DNA of 64,000 nt from a sulfur-oxidizing endosymbiont of Gigantopelta aegis (GTDB lineage Bacteria > Pseudomonadota > Gammaproteobacteria > GRL18). Under the pieces are notes generated by a model. That model was not told the origin of the DNA. It was given only the letters and a program-made list of their open reading frames with translations, and did not search any database. The translations under genes and the position numbers were made by a program. Location of the stretch: NCBI RefSeq assembly GCF_016097415.1, contig NZ_JAEHGE010000001.1, positions 3,922,610 through 3,986,609 on the forward strand, in the 5' to 3' direction. This document shows, one piece after another, positions 20,139-28,869 of this stretch. Every line of letters begins with the position of its first letter. The first letter of the stretch is position 1.

Positions 20139-21053
20139 ATGCCAAGTTCTGAGCAAAATATTCTACAGGCCTATCAATATTGTTTATCACTGGCTCACAG
20201 TCACTATGAAAACTTTCCTGTGGCTTCAAAGCTACTCAATAAAAAAATACGCCTGCCTGTTTCTGCCGTCTATGCCTTTGCCCGTACGGCTGATGATTTT
20301 GCCGATGAAGGCAATCAAAGTCCCAAGGAACGCTTACAGGCATTAAATGAGTATCAGAAGGAACTGGAACAAATCAAGCTAGCAATAGAAAACCATAATA
20401 ATAAGCCTCAACAATCCTCTAAGTTGTTTTTCTATCCCAGCAACAATCCCATTTTCACAGCCTTAGCCGATACTATTTATAAATTTACTATCCCCGTACA
20501 GCTGTTTGCTGATTTAATTCAAGCATTCAAACAAGATGTCACGACAACACGTTATGCAGATTTTAATGAAATTCTCGACTATTGTCGCCTAAGTGCCAAT
20601 CCAGTGGGGGGTATTTTATTACATTTAAATACTAGCGCCACGGCTGAAAATCTAAAAAATTCTGATGCTATTTGCACGGGACTGCAACTCATTAATTTTT
20701 ATCAAGATATCGCCCAAGATATAATAGAAAATGATCGCTTATACTTACCAACCAAAGAGTTAGAAGATCATCAGATCAGTATTGATGAGCTGCGTCAACA
20801 AATTAACAATGAACATACTCATCAATTACTCACACTACAAATTCAACGTGCCAAAACACTCTATCATTCAGGCGCTCCACTTTGCACCGCACTCAAAGGG
20901 CGTTTTGCCATTGAAATCCGTATGATTTTTTTTGCCGGGAAACTGATTCTGCATAAGCTTGAACAAAATACCAATAACATTTACCTTCGTCCACGACTCA
21001 CTCGACGAGATAAATTAAAGATTTTATGGCAGGCTTTATTTTCAAATCCTTAA
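20139..21053 (+). CDS. hpnC: Squalene synthase-like HpnC
   Basis: Trans-isoprenyl diphosphate synthase fold. In the bacterial HpnCDE route HpnC converts presqualene diphosphate to hydroxysqualene. The 304-residue product has the first aspartate motif in YAFARTADDFADEG (about residues 46-59), the CRLSANPVGGILL stretch, and the second motif LINFYQDIAQDI (about residues 185-196). Hopanoid-pathway genes hpnD and hpnE follow about 2.3 kb downstream on the same strand, interrupted by a sensor-like gene and a small reverse-strand gene. Confidence 0.92.
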   Translation: MPSSEQNILQAYQYCLSLAHSHYENFPVASKLLNKKIRLPVSAVYAFARTADDFADEGNQSPKERLQALNEYQKELEQIKLAIENHNNKPQQSSKLFFYPSNNPIFTALADTIYKFTIPVQLFADLIQAFKQDVTTTRYADFNEILDYCRLSANPVGGILLHLNTSATAENLKNSDAICTGLQLINFYQDIAQDIIENDRLYLPTKELEDHQISIDELRQQINNEHTHQLLTLQIQRAKTLYHSGAPLCTALKGRFAIEIRMIFFAGKLILHKLEQNTNNIYLRPRLTRRDKLKILWQALFSNP

Positions 21054-21186: not shown

Positions 21187-22827
21187 ATGCCCTCTATCGA
21201 TCAAGCCAATACAATATCCTCTACCTCATCAGTCCGTAAACGCTTAACGCGAGATATTACTCTACTGGTATTGTTATTAATCTCATTTTTTATTGCCCTC
21301 TCCTATTTTTATTCAAAACAAGTTCAGGAAAATATTACTCAGGCAATTATGACTTCAGCCAAAAAGCTGGTGGTTGATAAGAGTCATCAATTATTTTTAC
21401 CCATAAATAATAATTTAGTTTTATCTCGAAAATGGGCTGAATTTGAAACATTAACCCCAGAAATGCATGAAGTTTTTAATAAACGCTTTATCCCTGTCAT
21501 GGAAACCCTACCGCAAATTGCCTCAGTGATTTTGGCAAGCTCCGAAGGCGATGAGTATTATTTCACTCGCAAAGACGATAATTGGTTATCAAGACACACC
21601 AGTCCAAGCAAATACGGTGATGATAAAGTTTTATGGCAACTTTGGAATAGTAATAACAAACTCATCAAGCAATGGCATGAAAAATCTAACTATAAACCCC
21701 AGCAACGTCCCTGGTTTAAATTGGCACTGACAACGAATAAAAAAAATCACATCAAATGGACGCCGCCCTATACTTTTTATACCCAGGAAACACCGGGAGT
21801 CACTGGTGTCACACATTGGAAAAGTGAAACCAAAAATGGCAAAAGTATCGACTACATTCTAGCCTTTGATGTCACCTTCGCTGATATTGCTCAGGCAATT
21901 TCCAGTGTCCATGTTGATGACAATGATATCTCCTATCTCATCAGCCCCAAGGGTGAAGTCATATTACCCCCAGGGAATCATCTAAACATTAAAGGCACTC
22001 CTTCAAAAGGCAGTATGTATATCCCCGGTAGCGAAAGCAACTATGTCATATTTGATTCAGTCAACAACTGGCTAAAACAGCAACGAAAATTAGATAAATC
22101 ACATAGTTTTAGCCGTAATGGTAAACGCTGGTGGTATAAAATCTTTGTGCTGGATATTTATAGTAATGCCATCTACGCAGGTGTCATTGTGCCAGAAAAA
22201 GACTTAGTTGCCGTGCTCAATGACAATCTACGCTTTATTATCACCGGTATCCTGTTTTTACTGATCATTGCCGTGATTATGGCCAATATATTAGTCAAAA
22301 AGTATGCTCATCAACTCAAGGATGTGCCCAAAACACGTATATCAACACAAGATTTCACCAATGAAATCTATCATTTGCTCAGATTAGGTGAAAGTGAAAC
22401 CCTAGAATTCAAATCCACTATGCGCAGAAACCTCAAAACCAATAAAAATGGCAAAGAAATTGAAATCGCCTGGTTAAAAGGTATCGTCGGTTTTATGAAT
22501 ACTCATGGAGGCATTTTATTAATTGGTGTCGATGATGACTCGAATATACTGGGGATAGAAGTGGACAACTTTGATAATGAAGATAAAATACTTTTGCACT
22601 TTAAAAATCTACTCAGCCAACATATTGGCCTAGAGTTTTCAAATTTTATCAACCTTATTATCAATCAGATTGAAGGCAAGACCATCTTGGTCATTGAGTG
22701 TGAACGTGCTGATCGCCCGGCATTCTTATACAATAAAAACAGTGAGGATTTTTACATCCGTAGCGGCCCTGCAAGTGTGCAACTTAGCGTGAGCAAAGTG
22801 CTTAAATACGTTAGAAATCGTTATTGA
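21187..22827 (+). CDS. Membrane dCache sensor fused to a cytosolic AlbA_2 (Schlafen-type) domain
   Basis: The 546-residue product has one membrane helix near residues 26-43 and an extracytoplasmic region of about 300 residues. This region resembles a double-Cache ligand-binding domain (QQRPWFKLAL and WTPPYTFYT are typical of dCache_1). A second membrane helix lies at about residues 350-371. The cytosolic part starts with LLRLGESETLEFKSTMRR and continues with IVGFMNTHGGILLIGVDDD and FYIRSGPAS, the signatures of the AlbA_2/divergent AAA_4 (Schlafen-like) nucleic-acid-binding domain. No kinase, GGDEF or MCP output domain is present. Function is unknown; it sits inside the hopanoid gene group. 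Confidence 0.82.
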   Translation: MPSIDQANTISSTSSVRKRLTRDITLLVLLLISFFIALSYFYSKQVQENITQAIMTSAKKLVVDKSHQLFLPINNNLVLSRKWAEFETLTPEMHEVFNKRFIPVMETLPQIASVILASSEGDEYYFTRKDDNWLSRHTSPSKYGDDKVLWQLWNSNNKLIKQWHEKSNYKPQQRPWFKLALTTNKKNHIKWTPPYTFYTQETPGVTGVTHWKSETKNGKSIDYILAFDVTFADIAQAISSVHVDDNDISYLISPKGEVILPPGNHLNIKGTPSKGSMYIPGSESNYVIFDSVNNWLKQQRKLDKSHSFSRNGKRWWYKIFVLDIYSNAIYAGVIVPEKDLVAVLNDNLRFIITGILFLLIIAVIMANILVKKYAHQLKDVPKTRISTQDFTNEIYHLLRLGESETLEFKSTMRRNLKTNKNGKEIEIAWLKGIVGFMNTHGGILLIGVDDDSNILGIEVDNFDNEDKILLHFKNLLSQHIGLEFSNFINLIINQIEGKTILVIECERADRPAFLYNKNSEDFYIRSGPASVQLSVSKVLKYVRNRY

Positions 22828-23090
22828 GTCGCTTCAAAATCCATTTGAATACCGACAGCCATGCCTGCTCTGGAAAATTTTCCATGATAACGACGTGCTT
22901 TCTCTAAATCATTGGTTTTTTTGATTACTACACGACTTGGAACATCACCAAAGAATTTCTTTTCGACTTCATCGTTGCTAAGGCGGGTAATACTTTCAAG
23001 ATTTTTTATAACTTGATCTTTTTCAAAGCCCGTGACAATTTCTCCCATAAAAACTACAGAATAATTCACTTCTTTATCAATAGCAGACAT
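22821..23090 (-). CDS. Small uncharacterised protein
   Basis: The product of about 89 residues is not recognised. It reads as one compact alpha/beta domain (YSVVFMGEIVTGFEKDQVIK; VVIKKTNDLEKARRYHGKFS) with no signal or membrane segment. The ATG at 23090 is preferred because AAGGAG lies 9 bp upstream; a TTG one codon earlier is an alternative. It converges on the dCache gene with a 7-bp overlap and is divergent from hpnD. Confidence 0.65.
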   Translation of the reverse strand: MSAIDKEVNYSVVFMGEIVTGFEKDQVIKNLESITRLSNDEVEKKFFGDVPSRVVIKKTNDLEKARRYHGKFSRAGMAVGIQMDFEATQ

Positions 23091-23323
23091 CAACTTTGGC
23101 TCCTTTATAACTATTTACCACACAGGAAACATATAACTGACGGCATTTCTTGTATTATTTCATTAAAAATGATGAAAAAACATCTGTTTCCTATTAAACA
23201 GCGCTTTCACATCTTATAATAGTTCAAATTACGTTAAAGTAATGTGAAACATGATAGAAATTCTACATTTTTTTATCGTAAACTGTGAATCTATCCTAAT
23301 TTTAAAGAATAATTCAAACTCAA

Positions 23324-24184
23324 ATGACCCCAGACGAATATTGCCAAGACAAAGCTCAACAAAGTGGTTCCAGTTTCTATTATAGTTTTTTATTTCTAAA
23401 TGAAACTCAACGCCAGGCGATGATAGCCTTATACGCATTTTGTCGAGTCGTCGATGACATTGTTGATGAATGCACTGAACCGATGATTGCCGCCAATAAA
23501 CTGCAATGGTGGCGTGAAGAAGTTCATCATCTTTTTCATGATCAGCCCAGCCACCCTGTGTCTCTGGCACTAAAGACCAGTCTAAAACACTTTCCCCTGC
23601 AAGAAGAATATTTTCAGGAACTCATTAGTGGCATGGAAATGGACTTAAATGATACCCAATATGCCAATTTTGAAGATTTATCGGTGTATTGTTATCGTGC
23701 TGCGGGTGTCGTTGGCTTGCTCACCATTGAAATCCTTGGCTATAAAGGTCAATCCACACCTGAATACGCTCGAAATCTTGGCATTGCTTTGCAACTGATT
23801 AATATATTGAGAGATGTTAAAGAAGATGCTCTCAGAGGACGTGTTTACCTGCCTAAGGATGAAATGACTGAATTTGCTGTTACGCCCGAAATGCTCCTAA
23901 ATACTGAGAATACACCCCAAACACTAGCACTATTTGCCCATCAGGCACAACGCGCCCAGCATTATTATCAAAAAGCATTTTCCCAACTAAATGAAAAGGA
24001 TCGGTTCTCCCAAAGAACAGGCATTATTATGGCGGAAATTTATTATGCACTGCTGAAAAAGATTCAAACTAAGCATTTTCCGGTGTTAAAGAAACGCGTC
24101 AGTATTAATAAATTAAAAAAGCTTTGGATAGCTTGGACAACCGCTCGTCGTGAGTACAAACATGCACAATCACTTAAATCCTGA
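23324..24184 (+). CDS. hpnD: Presqualene diphosphate synthase HpnD
   Basis: Condenses two farnesyl diphosphates to presqualene diphosphate, the first committed step of HpnCDE squalene synthesis. The 286-residue product has FYYSFLFLNETQRQAMIALYAFCRVVDDIVDE, containing the first aspartate-rich motif (VVDDIVDE). The second motif is LINILRDVKEDALRGRVYLP. The length is typical. The hpnE start lies 6 bp beyond its stop, indicating co-translation. Confidence 0.94.
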   Translation: MTPDEYCQDKAQQSGSSFYYSFLFLNETQRQAMIALYAFCRVVDDIVDECTEPMIAANKLQWWREEVHHLFHDQPSHPVSLALKTSLKHFPLQEEYFQELISGMEMDLNDTQYANFEDLSVYCYRAAGVVGLLTIEILGYKGQSTPEYARNLGIALQLINILRDVKEDALRGRVYLPKDEMTEFAVTPEMLLNTENTPQTLALFAHQAQRAQHYYQKAFSQLNEKDRFSQRTGIIMAEIYYALLKKIQTKHFPVLKKRVSINKLKKLWIAWTTARREYKHAQSLKS

Positions 24185-24190
24185 TTTAGT

Positions 24191-25570
24191 ATGAAAAATA
24201 CCCACGATATCATTATCGTCGGCGCGGGTTGGAGTGGGCTTGCCTGTGCAATCACTTTAGCAGAACAGGGATATCACGTTTGTATTCTTGAATCGGCACA
24301 ACAAGCTGGCGGTCGAGCAAGAGGCGTACAATTTAAACACTTTTTACCCAGGCAAACACTTGATAATGGTCAGCATATAATGCTGGGGGCATATCATTCA
24401 ACGTTAGCACTGTTCAAACTCATTGGTGTTAATACCGATATACAGTTACAGCATGAAGCATTGCAATTAGCCATGTATACTTCAAAAAAGCAACCGTCTA
24501 AACACCCGTATATTCATTTAAAAGCCGCTTCCCTACCCTCCCCTTTGCATTTATTGTCAGGTTTAATGTTCATGCAGGGCGTTAGCTTTTCTGAACGACT
24601 ATCCTTAATAAAAATGGCATTGATGCTTGCCATAAAACGCTATAAACTCAAATACGACATCAGTGTGCTGCAACTGCTAAAACAGTATGCTCAATCAGAA
24701 AAAGTCATTGCGGCATTATGGGAGCCACTATGCCTCGCCTCTTTAAATACGCCTATTCAATATGCTTCAGCCCAGGTTTTTCTGAATGTTTTGAAAGATA
24801 GTTTTAGCCATAAGCAAAGTGATTCCAGTCTCATTTTTCTTAAAAATAATCTTAGTACTCTTTTTACTTCACCAGCAATTGATTTTATTAAGAAACATAA
24901 TGGGGAAATTAAATACACGGAAAAAGTCTTACAATTTTCCCCCACAAAGTATCAATCCTTGATAGTCACTACGTCAAAGCAGCAATATTCTTGTCATACT
25001 TTAATTTTAGCCACGCCAGCACATATCACTAATACGCTAATAAATGCACAATCGCCCATTAGTCAACAAAACATTCTAATACCTGGTCATGCCTCTCTAA
25101 AATTTAATTATGAGCCTATTTGCACAGTCTATCTACAATACCCTCCCGATACAGAATTGCCTAGCACAATGGTTGGCTTCTTTAATACCACAATACAATG
25201 GGCTATTGATCGACGTTTATGCAATCAAGCGGGTTTATTTGCCATCGTGATCAGTGCCTCAGGTAAACATGAAAGTCTTGCAAATGAAGCTCTCATTGCT
25301 CTAGTTCATCAAGAATTGAAGCTCTGTCTAGCTAATTTGCCTGAACTCATTAGCTCACAAGTTATTATTGAAAAAAAAGCCACCTTTAGCTGTGTCGTTG
25401 GCATTGAAAATCAGCGACCTGACAATGAAACTCACATTGCAGGTTTATATCTTGCGGGTGATTATACCAATACACATTATCCCGCAACTTTAGAGAGTGC
25501 CATTCGAAGTGGTCAGTCAGCAGCAAATAAAATCATGTTGTCGCTTTACCCTAGTGCTAAATATCGCTAA
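24191..25570 (+). CDS. hpnE: Hydroxysqualene dehydroxylase HpnE
   Basis: FAD-dependent amine-oxidase-fold enzyme that reduces hydroxysqualene to squalene. The 459-residue product opens with the dinucleotide-binding motif IIVGAGWSGLACAITLAEQG, followed by LESAQQAGGRARGV and DNGQHIMLGAYHSTLALF, typical of HpnE/phytoene-desaturase relatives. The C-terminal FAD motif is seen as LYLAGDYTNTHYPATLESAIRSG. It directly follows hpnD. No squalene-hopene cyclase is in the window, so hopanoid formation is inferred. Confidence 0.93.
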   Translation: MKNTHDIIIVGAGWSGLACAITLAEQGYHVCILESAQQAGGRARGVQFKHFLPRQTLDNGQHIMLGAYHSTLALFKLIGVNTDIQLQHEALQLAMYTSKKQPSKHPYIHLKAASLPSPLHLLSGLMFMQGVSFSERLSLIKMALMLAIKRYKLKYDISVLQLLKQYAQSEKVIAALWEPLCLASLNTPIQYASAQVFLNVLKDSFSHKQSDSSLIFLKNNLSTLFTSPAIDFIKKHNGEIKYTEKVLQFSPTKYQSLIVTTSKQQYSCHTLILATPAHITNTLINAQSPISQQNILIPGHASLKFNYEPICTVYLQYPPDTELPSTMVGFFNTTIQWAIDRRLCNQAGLFAIVISASGKHESLANEALIALVHQELKLCLANLPELISSQVIIEKKATFSCVVGIENQRPDNETHIAGLYLAGDYTNTHYPATLESAIRSGQSAANKIMLSLYPSAKYR

Positions 25571-26415: not shown

Positions 26416-28869
26416 TTATGGCCTTGTTTCAAGGCCATTTTTTATCGCCATAAACTCAGAAATTAATATGGGTTTTTCAACGCCATAACCCTGCGCATAA
26501 TCCACACCAATTTCTTCTAATACCGTTACAATTTCTTCATTTTCTACATACTCTGCAACGGTTTTCATCCCTAAGAAATGACCAATTTCATTAATGGATT
26601 TTACCATGGCTCTATCAGCTGAATTATTGACGATATCCTTAATAAAAACCCCATCAATTTTCAGATAATCAACAGGAAGATTCTTTAAGTAAGCATAAGA
26701 TGAGAGCCCTGTACCAAAGTCATCCAAAGCAAACTTACAGCCCATTTCTTTTATTGAATGAATAATATTGGTCGCATAACTGACATTATGAATAGCCATG
26801 GTTTCTGTGATTTCAAAACAAATTAAGTCATGAGGGATATCAGAAAATTCTGCAAAGATATCAACAATAAAAGGATAAAAATTAACATCATTAAGACTTT
26901 GACCGGATAAGTTGATAGCAATTCCACCCATCATGGCTAATTGTTCTGGATTTTTACTGAACCAGTCAAGCACATAGCGAATTACCCAGCGATCTACGTC
27001 AACCATTTTATTGTAAAGCTCTGCTGCTTCAATAAATTCAGCAGGCGGAATAAATTTATCATTGTCATCCTTAACTAATAAGAGCATTTCATAGTGCTGT
27101 ACTAATTTAATTTCACGCGATTCATTATTCAATGGTTGTAATAGTTGACAGCGAATATCCAGCATATTGTCATTAACCATCTGCTCTATTTTTGTAGCCC
27201 AGATTTGTAGTTCTTGACGATGATTTAATTCAATCGCATCATATTCAATATAGTGAACTCGATTGCGCCCCATTTCTTTAGCGATGGTGGTTGCTGTCAC
27301 GACTGCCTTCAAATAAACATCAACTTCATTTTCTTCAGTAATTGAAACTAGGCCAATACTGGCCGTTAAAGCAAATTCTTTTTCATCCCATTTAAAATGA
27401 TGTTCACTAATTGCCAAACGTTTTTCTTCAGCAATTTGCAGTGCTTTGGTTTGAGAGTATTCTGGCAACAAAAGAATAAATTCATCGATACCATAGCGGG
27501 CAATAATCACATTTTCAGCAAAATTTTGTTTAATAATTTGTGATATTTGTGAAATATAATAATCACCGGCTTCATAACCGCAAGTATCATTGATTAAACT
27601 AAATTGATCAATATCAATATGACAAATAACACAGGCAGAATTATTAGCACCTACTTCTAATTGACTCCGCTGATCAAACATTTCATGCATTTTGCTAATA
27701 AATTCTTTTTGATTGATTAGGCCTGATACATCATCAAGCGTACTTTCTTTTGCCATATCATCATGTACATCACCCAAAATATTGTATAAGCTTCGCTCTA
27801 AAATAGGTAAGTCATAATCACGTGTTTGTGATAATTGACCATTACTTAACATACTGACTACTTCATTTAGATTGAACACAGCATGCTGCTTGCCTGCTTT
27901 ATCTGTAAACACAAAAACATTACGGGCATCACTCATCCAAGTCAATTGTATGCGAATTGATTTTAATATTGACTGATTTGACTGTTTAAACAAAACAAAA
28001 TCATTGATATTCATTCGCATTGCTATGGCACGATTAGCAACAAACAAAGGATCAGCGTTTTCTTTATTTAAGCCAATAATTGCTTGCTTGTCAGCCAATG
28101 AATAGCCATTAATTAATAGCTTGATAATATCCTCATAATCATAAGCAACTTCATCATCAAAAAGTCCATGATCTAAAAAGGAGGCTATACCATGTAATGT
28201 TTTATTCCTATTCTCTCTACTGATAGTCGTGCTTTCTTTTAATGCCTGTTTAACAATAAATAAAACAGCCTCTTTATCAATGAGCTCATCATTGACTTCC
28301 TTAGTCATCGTCATAATTAAAATATCTAGCGCTTGCCAATTCTGACGCCACCGATGGCTCTCTTTACCGTATTTCAAATACGTAGAAACTAAAATAGAAA
28401 ACCATTGTTCACTGATAAAATCTGCTATTACCAAAGGCATCATTTGCCCTGATAAACGATTGGCCATTTCTGTAGTAACAACTTGTTGAGCATGCCATTG
28501 TTTTATAACTTTCTTAATGTTTTTCTTAAATTTATCTGACTGAATTTGCAATAGTTCACTTAACACTTTTTCTACTTTAGCAAAGACACTCAAATCATCA
28601 TTATAGTTTTTTAGAATAAAAATAATGAATGAGTGGGTTTTTCGGTAAAAATTATTAGTATCATTTTCCAGATGTACCATAGCTAATTTATTAATAAGAA
28701 TACGTGCTGGATTTGACCATGACTCAAAAAAATCCTTATGTCGTAATGAAACTTTTAAAAAAGGAATTTGTAATAAGGATAATAATTTTTTTGCAGGATC
28801 ACTCAGCCAATAGTCATTTTCAATCGAAGCAAATAAACGTTTAATCACATCAAGGGTATATTCAAATTC
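26416..28869 (-). pseudogene. Fragment 5 (C-terminal): end of DUF1631, degenerate GGDEF and EAL
   Basis: About 817 codons remain open. The N-terminal part (LLSLLQIPFLKVSLRHKDFF; PARILINKLAM) is the C-terminal part of DUF1631. A GGDEF domain follows, but its signature reads RYGIDEFILLLPE, so the second glycine is lost. The EAL domain opens with HYEMLLLV instead of an EAL triplet, although the DDFGTGLSSYAYLKNLPVDYLKID loop region is well kept. Both catalytic sites are therefore doubtful. The GTG at 28848 is an internal codon of the ancestral gene; a shortened protein could start there, but no promoter is evident apart from the adjacent IS. Confidence 0.9.
26418..26443 (+). terminator. Intrinsic terminator of the hpn-yciK transcript
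   Basis: Perfect 9-bp stem ATGGCCTTG / CAAGGCCAT with a 3-base loop, followed by six T residues, about 30 bp after the yciK stop. It overlaps the last codons of the convergent DUF1631-GGDEF-EAL fragment. On the minus strand the hairpin lacks a T-run, so it should act mainly on the plus strand. Confidence 0.9.

Follow-up and report, generated by a model that had tools for sequence, protein, structure and literature searches.

The window analyzed here is a stretch of 64,000 nucleotides from a sulfur-oxidizing endosymbiont of Gigantopelta aegis, and its hopanoid genes enclose an ORF that seems to join an extracytoplasmic sensor to a Schlafen-type domain. This locus raises the question of whether such a fusion is genuine and, if so, what an external signal could do to a Schlafen domain in the cytosol. 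Our answer, to which we give a probability of about one half, is that the protein works as a one-component transmembrane receptor whose cytosolic Schlafen RNase is controlled by an amino-acid-like ligand from outside, with both the ligand and the cleavage being predictions.

A search of the window's own genome with the receptor protein returned one match, the window ORF itself (Table 1). Its short basic N-terminus, with a net charge of +2, precedes the first of two membrane helices, which enclose a dCache-like domain as the preliminary description had proposed. The two motifs that it had noted in the cytosolic domain, ETLEFKST and GFMNTHGGILLIGVDDD, were located at residues 404-411 and 435-451 of the translation. 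The Pfam scan of the window protein found no HAMP match between helix 2 and the SLFN domain, and the NCBIfam scan assigned no family to the protein. In the full-length AlphaFold model, which was built from six rows, block means for the sensor were mostly 69-87 and went down to 38 in loops, and those of the C-terminal SLFN part were poor (32-57). The SLFN domain was therefore folded alone, from 13 rows, which gave a model with a pLDDT of 94 and a pTM of 0.88.

Table 1 Features of the receptor gene and its neighbors in the window.
Feature	Coordinates	Strand	Basis
hpnC (squalene synthase HpnC), nearest upstream neighbor	20139..21053	+	TIGR03464 289.6 bits, cut-off 250.45
dCache-SLFN receptor gene	21187..22827	+	ATG start; 546 aa ORF
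Membrane helix 1 (residues 24-42)	21256..21312	+	hydropathy 2.41; helix in AlphaFold model
Extracytoplasmic dCache sensor (about residues 44-346)	21316..22224	+	fold matches Z 15.6-18.3; weak Pfam dCache_1
Amino-acid-binding motif Y169, R174, W176, Y195, D228, distal Cache module	21691..21870	+	sequence alignment
Membrane helix 2 (residues 351-369)	22237..22293	+	hydropathy 2.87
Linker of ~31 residues, YAHQLKDVPKT core, without HAMP	22297..22389	+	Pfam scan; linker comparison
Cytosolic SLFN_AlbA_2 output domain (residues 386-546)	22342..22824	+	PF04326 E 4e-22; pLDDT 94; fold matches
E402, aligns with catalytic E205 of SLFN13	22390..22392	+	5yd0 alignment; 30/30 fusion rows
E407, aligns with catalytic E210 of SLFN13	22405..22407	+	5yd0 alignment; 30/30 fusion rows
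D450, aligns with catalytic D248 of SLFN13	22534..22536	+	5yd0 alignment; 30/30 fusion rows
Small conserved convergent gene (~90 aa), between receptor gene and hpnD	22821..23093 (about)	-	no Pfam match
hpnD	23324..24184	+	TIGR03465 340.9 bits, cut-off 278.6
hpnE	24191..25570	+	TIGR03467 398.8 bits, cut-off 283.05

The Pfam dCache_1 profile (PF02743) scored 23.5 bits on the window protein, under the cut-off of 45, and the sensor is thus assigned by its fold rather than by curated Pfam membership. Two Cache modules are arranged on a long N-terminal helix between the two membrane helices, and among the best 50 matches listed the fold neighbors are nearly all dCache ligand-binding domains, with Z scores of 15.6-18.3. 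Fold comparison and Foldseek showed that these neighbors come from chemoreceptors, kinases, and a cyclase; 6mni aligned with the full-length model at Z 17.5, with 3.0 Å over 243 residues.

We aligned the window sensor with Mlp37, Mlp24, and a proline-bound cyclase, and these alignments, although weak (E 0.0012 to 0.08), placed all residues of the dCache_1AA motif (Y-R-W-Y-D) in the distal module. The first position of this motif is Trp in Mlp37, Tyr in Mlp24, and Phe in the proline-bound cyclase. As far as the available text of PMC11237719 and PMC10104139 describes it, the first three residues of the motif contact the carboxyl group of the ligand and the last two its amino group. Of 28 fusion sensors, 23 had all five residues, and the number rose to 26 when Phe was allowed at the first position. 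R174 and D228 were lost in one Desulfocapsa-group copy (L007), and the first aromatic residue was absent from L007 and L038, so the ligand cannot be identical in all fusion sensors. An amino acid or a close derivative is the most likely ligand predicted from the motif, although a dCache_1AA motif can persist by inheritance while the ligand changes.

SLFN_AlbA_2 (PF04326) matched residues 402-533 with 79.3 bits (cut-off 25.3, E 4e-22), and the AlbA_2/Schlafen output of the preliminary description was thereby confirmed. Twenty fold matches to the SLFN model exceeded Z 5, all of them Schlafens or SAMD9 except for 3lmm and 2kyy, two bacterial structures that we take to be labeled AlbA_2; the next matches fell below 5. 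The Schlafen/SAMD9 core matches spanned Z 7-13, with 13.1 and 12.7 for SAMD9 (the latter for its tRNase domain, 9o0d), 10.2 for SLFN14, and 9.3 for SLFN13; the bacterial 3lmm scored 13.1. Profile matches to SLFN14 (E 1.9e-10) and SLFN13 (5yd0, E 2.1e-10) pointed in the same direction. Structure prediction and domain profiles thus bore out both domain assignments.

In the alignment with 5yd0, E402, E407, and D450 pair with residues 218, 223, and 261 of the 5yd0 chain. These chain residues are 5 and 38 positions apart, as are E205, E210, and D248, the residues that form the active site of SLFN13 for tRNA cleavage according to the accessible portion of PMC5862951. This Glu-Glu-Asp triad of the vertebrate type was complete in all 30 aligned fusion rows. 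Among 33 other bacterial SLFN_AlbA_2 domains, a simple motif match located the same triad in 27, and the triad therefore indicates competence and is no proof of activity. The window protein has a single SLFN match and a single folded lobe, not a two-lobed pseudo-dimeric core, so it is classed not as a vertebrate-type Schlafen RNase but only as working alike. The output domain is slightly acidic (net charge -3), which is not as expected of a nucleic-acid binder. It is more conserved than the sensor, with mean identities of 84.8% versus 62.6% in 15 family rows and 54.7% versus 24.9% in 10 rows across lineages.

An output domain of this kind could also bind without cutting. Of three rival explanations, we rank first a membrane-tethered nucleic-acid binder, followed by a phage-defence effector and then by a lipid-specific regulator. 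In the first, modeled on the membrane-tethered regulators ToxR and CadC, the AlbA_2 domain would hold DNA or RNA without cleavage and alter the transcription of nearby genes such as hpnCDE. The fold neighbors of the output domain include a SAMD9 structure solved with bound DNA (7ksp) as well as 3lmm, a bacterial protein for which we know of no activity, and the receptor adjoins hpnC in the window's family, with hpnC, the receptor gene, and hpnD tightly packed in one genome (G007). However, the Pfam scan of the window protein found neither a winged helix nor any other sequence-specific DNA-binding domain, and the SLFN domain stands at the C-terminus without a winged helix, which is not the arrangement of AlbA_2-winged-helix regulators, where an N-terminal SLFN_AlbA_2 domain is followed by the winged helix. 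Moreover, a full carboxylate triad is strictly kept, which pure binding does not obviously need. We consider the tethered binder unlikely, and the transcriptional module envisaged earlier is less supported in view of the missing DNA-binding domain, the Schlafen and SAMD9 neighbors, and the invariant triad. Rows labeled by eye as wHTH-type formed their own branch in the SLFN tree (100/99).

We searched 57 genomes overall, 24 of them from the window's family, and the full-length fusion was present in 15 of these 24. Pieces were found in three more (G002, G009, and G023), and the fusion was absent from six (G003, G006, G015, G016, G017, and G018). The pieces in G009 and G023 end at contig ends, and that in G002 (G002:C122) has two in-frame stop codons. 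An HpnC-like match in G015 (G015:C38:4249-5121) also has two in-frame stops, and decay or assembly error is possible in both cases. A draw of 369 genomes from the class contained five full-length copies, two in the window's family and three (G091, G221, and G363) in two other families of the class, and a draw of 398 genomes from the phylum contained a full-length copy only in the window's own genome; in both draws, no more than three candidates per genome were scored. Among 297 genomes in the surroundings of a Desulfocapsa MAG, a group that we take to be Desulfobacterota, ten had both halves in one intact ORF (G767, G849, G844, G1005, G983, G935, G1034, G1037, G1057, and G855), and in three (G768, G908, and G972) the fusion was split or cut by contig ends. 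A tblastn search of plasmids returned nine records, each with the SLFN part only and none with the fusion. Since the single ORF recurs across lineages, the fusion of dCache and Schlafen domains is not a product of chance. Neither of the two outcomes that the preliminary description had named in advance as counting against it, a different family for the C-terminal part or homologs lacking the fusion, occurred.

The SLFN tree comprised 56 domains and included 23 of the 30 fusion rows, with seven near-duplicates omitted (L003, L006, L010, L011, L017, L039, and L170). The pieces in G002, G009, G023, and G768 stand outside the 30 rows. A further candidate (L172, from G1046) was rejected as a dCache-cyclase by eye and was excluded from the triad, motif, and tree counts. 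The 23 rows formed one group with support of 82/91, recovered in 87% of bootstrap trees, which lends moderate support to a single origin of the fusion and suggests that it was probably kept as a unit. Linkers measured about 21, 26, 31, and 41-42 residues by lineage, and a value of 35 in some family rows is an artefact of a polar residue inside the helix. This variation between lineages argues against one rigid coupling geometry, and a conserved linker phase was dropped as an idea since the lengths were too variable.

Near relatives of the output domain are often C-terminal modules in other architectures too. A GmrSD-type part lies ahead of the SLFN domain in L031, where it scores over the Pfam cut-off, and in L044 and L046, where it scores below and the N-termini are cut. 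A Methylase_S-type part takes this place in L047 (L047:262-1977, by Pfam match) and, by resemblance, in L048. L049 and L052 have two hydrophobic segments (by eye) before the SLFN domain and no other Pfam match. Together with L026, L051, L053, L159, and L161, they are small two-segment proteins (by eye) with a C-terminal SLFN domain that form one branch (100/99), and this separate group is a second kind of bacterial Schlafen that is probably membrane-bound. L104 and L105, on viral contigs, have a GmrSD-type N-terminal part by resemblance and a C-terminal SLFN domain. In these two and in L031, L044, and L046, one protein combines the GmrSD-type part and the SLFN domain with a possible HNH-like motif (by eye), and GmrSD-SLFN proteins are likely restriction or defence enzymes with a Schlafen tail. 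PDB 9ylu (CbCash), a solved structure, is a further match to the SLFN profile (E 0.0012), with 28 chains over three entries, and no paper using the name CbCash was found in the open-licence literature.

Such relatives bear on the second rival, in which the protein would be an anti-phage effector that senses envelope damage or a phage-related signal outside, whereupon the Schlafen core would cut tRNA and growth would stop. Near SLFN relatives stand behind GmrSD-type (L031, L044, and L046) or Methylase_S-type (L047) parts, the non-SLFN parts of L031, L044, and L047 match PADLOC models, and viral contigs carry three related SLFN domains (L103-L105). According to the available text of PMC12839542, which itself cites a preprint, phage defence by Schlafen-linked systems can involve the cleavage of tRNA. 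The window protein, however, has no match in PADLOC-DB 2023, a library that predates recent Schlafen systems, and its sensor bears an amino-acid-type motif. In addition, defence genes usually move, whereas this gene keeps a fixed position in 17 of 18 family genomes. An anti-phage role is thus improbable in our judgment.

The position of the ORF between hpnC and hpnD was reported correctly in the preliminary description, and both neighbors pass their NCBIfam cut-offs; a small opposite-strand gene also lies before hpnD, so the receptor ORF and hpnD are not simply co-transcribed. Between hpnC and hpnD, the promoter scan found 10 sites compared with 10.2 in shuffles, which is no excess, and the terminator scan found none. 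Of the 14 family loci with both the receptor gene and hpnD, 13 have the small convergent gene, which is missing at that place in G007. In G015, this small gene lies beside hpnD at a place that lacks both hpnC and the receptor gene. The receptor gene or a piece of it adjoins hpnC and/or hpnD in the family genomes that carry it, with G001 as the exception. hpnC is directly upstream in all of the 16 family loci in which that side is present and the gene lies within the hpn group, and it is a steadier neighbor than hpnD; in G012, for instance, the genes downstream of the receptor are a CDP-alcohol phosphatidyltransferase and leuA (by eye), not hpnD. A large protein of the GGDEF-EAL type (by eye) is encoded at 26416-28848 on the minus strand of the window, and it remains close to the hpn group in L002, L004, and L006, as it does in G001.

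This setting favors the third rival, in which the protein would sense an envelope signal and serve specifically to regulate the synthesis of hopanoids or membrane lipids, given that 17 of 18 family genomes have the receptor beside hpnC and/or hpnD. For two Desulfocapsa-group copies (L007 and L171), the run of genes that contains the receptor also includes MlaE/MlaD-type lipid transport genes, separated from it by one or two others. Yet an HpnC search gave no match in any of the 13 Desulfocapsa-group genomes with a receptor gene, whose completeness is unstated, and G001, G091, G221, and G363 carry the receptor gene apart from hpn genes. In G091 and G221, HpnC matches are under the cut-off only, and in G363 HpnC is present with the receptor gene on another contig. 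Conversely, the receptor gene is missing from G016 and G018, both of which have HpnD and a second HpnC-like match. The receptor is also absent from G003, G015, and G017, where the loci are broken at contig ends or rearranged, so its absence there says little. The remaining neighborhoods, among those listed, are mostly not composed of lipid genes (by eye). We therefore regard a dedicated lipid regulator as very unlikely.

Across lineages, the receptor did not generally co-occur with hpnC. The placement beside hpn genes, from which the preliminary description had raised a possible link with membrane lipid control, held only within the window's family, and as a general rule the link was not supported; other lineages carry the receptor by other genes. 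A hopanoid link was accordingly rejected as a general mechanism on the HpnC search and the neighborhoods listed; the placement looks like a lineage-specific setting that is not part of the mechanism. Within the Desulfocapsa group, an NhaA Na+/H+ antiporter gene is directly upstream of the receptor in L007 and L168. The neighbors in L166 are a dCache_2 histidine kinase and its response regulator. In L171 (L171:1188-8518), genes for Ysc84, MlaE, MlaD, an auxiliary lipoprotein, DUF3124, and a solute-binding protein precede the dCache-SLFN gene.

We return to the reading of the protein as a ligand-controlled Schlafen RNase. Here the computation supports both folds and the topology, as well as the catalytic triad, the ligand motif, and the conserved fusion. 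The architecture is solid and surprising; the RNase activity is a prediction from sequence and modeled structure. In the mechanism we propose, the periplasmic dCache domain would bind a small molecule in its distal Cache module, the likeliest being an amino acid or a close derivative. Binding would shift the membrane-spanning helix, as in other dCache receptors, and the short HAMP-less linker would relay this shift to the single-lobe Schlafen core. We infer that the receptor is dimeric, such that two Schlafen lobes may join into a cleft like that of two-lobed vertebrate Schlafen. The ligand state would then bring the lobes into or out of their working arrangement, in either direction, and this arrangement would control RNA cleavage, with tRNA as the likeliest substrate. 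This reading is easy to test, because predictions exist for the likely class of ligand as well as for the catalytic residues. In its fullest form, a membrane-bound Schlafen tRNase would be switched directly by extracellular amino acids, and the nutrients outside would set translation inside the cell without an intervening kinase, second messenger, or transcription factor. We put this version forward only tentatively; if true, the receptor would be a bacterial counterpart of IRE1 made of unrelated parts.

A survey of Cache domains (PMC4822843, in the portion available) describes them as the largest extracellular sensor superfamily of prokaryotes and gives known signaling outputs for them. The word Schlafen does not occur in the available main text of this survey, whose training set was chosen by known outputs, so other outputs could be missed. 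No description of a Cache-Schlafen protein was found in the open-licence literature, which was represented largely by titles and abstract openings. With a Schlafen output, direct control of RNA would join the list of Cache outputs, and a bacterial Schlafen domain would gain a natural function outside defence.

Both parts of the protein have known counterparts. The dCache_1AA receptors (PctA, Mlp24, Mlp37, and the proline-bound diguanylate cyclase 7k5n) share its topology, its dCache fold, and the motif residues for carboxyl and amino contacts, but their outputs are methyl-accepting, kinase, or cyclase domains, whereas the window protein has a Schlafen output and no HAMP. The vertebrate Schlafen RNases SLFN11, SLFN13, and SLFN14 have the C-lobe fold and the E/E/D triad in common with it, but they are two-lobed with further C-terminal parts, and the window protein is one-lobed and tethered to a membrane sensor. 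The tRNase (AlbA) domain of SAMD9 has a similar Schlafen-type fold (Z 12.7-13.1); unlike the window protein, SAMD9 is large and contains other domains, as the accessible part of PMC5445408 presents it. PUCH, the piRNA nuclease of C. elegans, contains several SLFN-like domains and is held at the membrane by a transmembrane helix, according to the available text of PMC10567574. It resembles the window protein as a membrane-bound Schlafen-type nuclease, a role that is predicted for the latter, but it is composed of different subunits and its helix is an anchor, not a sensor. The bacterial 2-TM SLFN, GmrSD-SLFN, and Methylase_S-SLFN proteins carry a related C-terminal SLFN module, and their inputs differ, being a short membrane hairpin (by eye) or restriction-type or specificity-type parts. 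IRE1 has a sensor outside the cytosol connected by one pass to an RNase inside, with a kinase and a KEN RNase. Its likeness to the window protein is one of working principle, and the domains are unrelated. Sensor and output are thus each familiar, and it is their coupling that is new.
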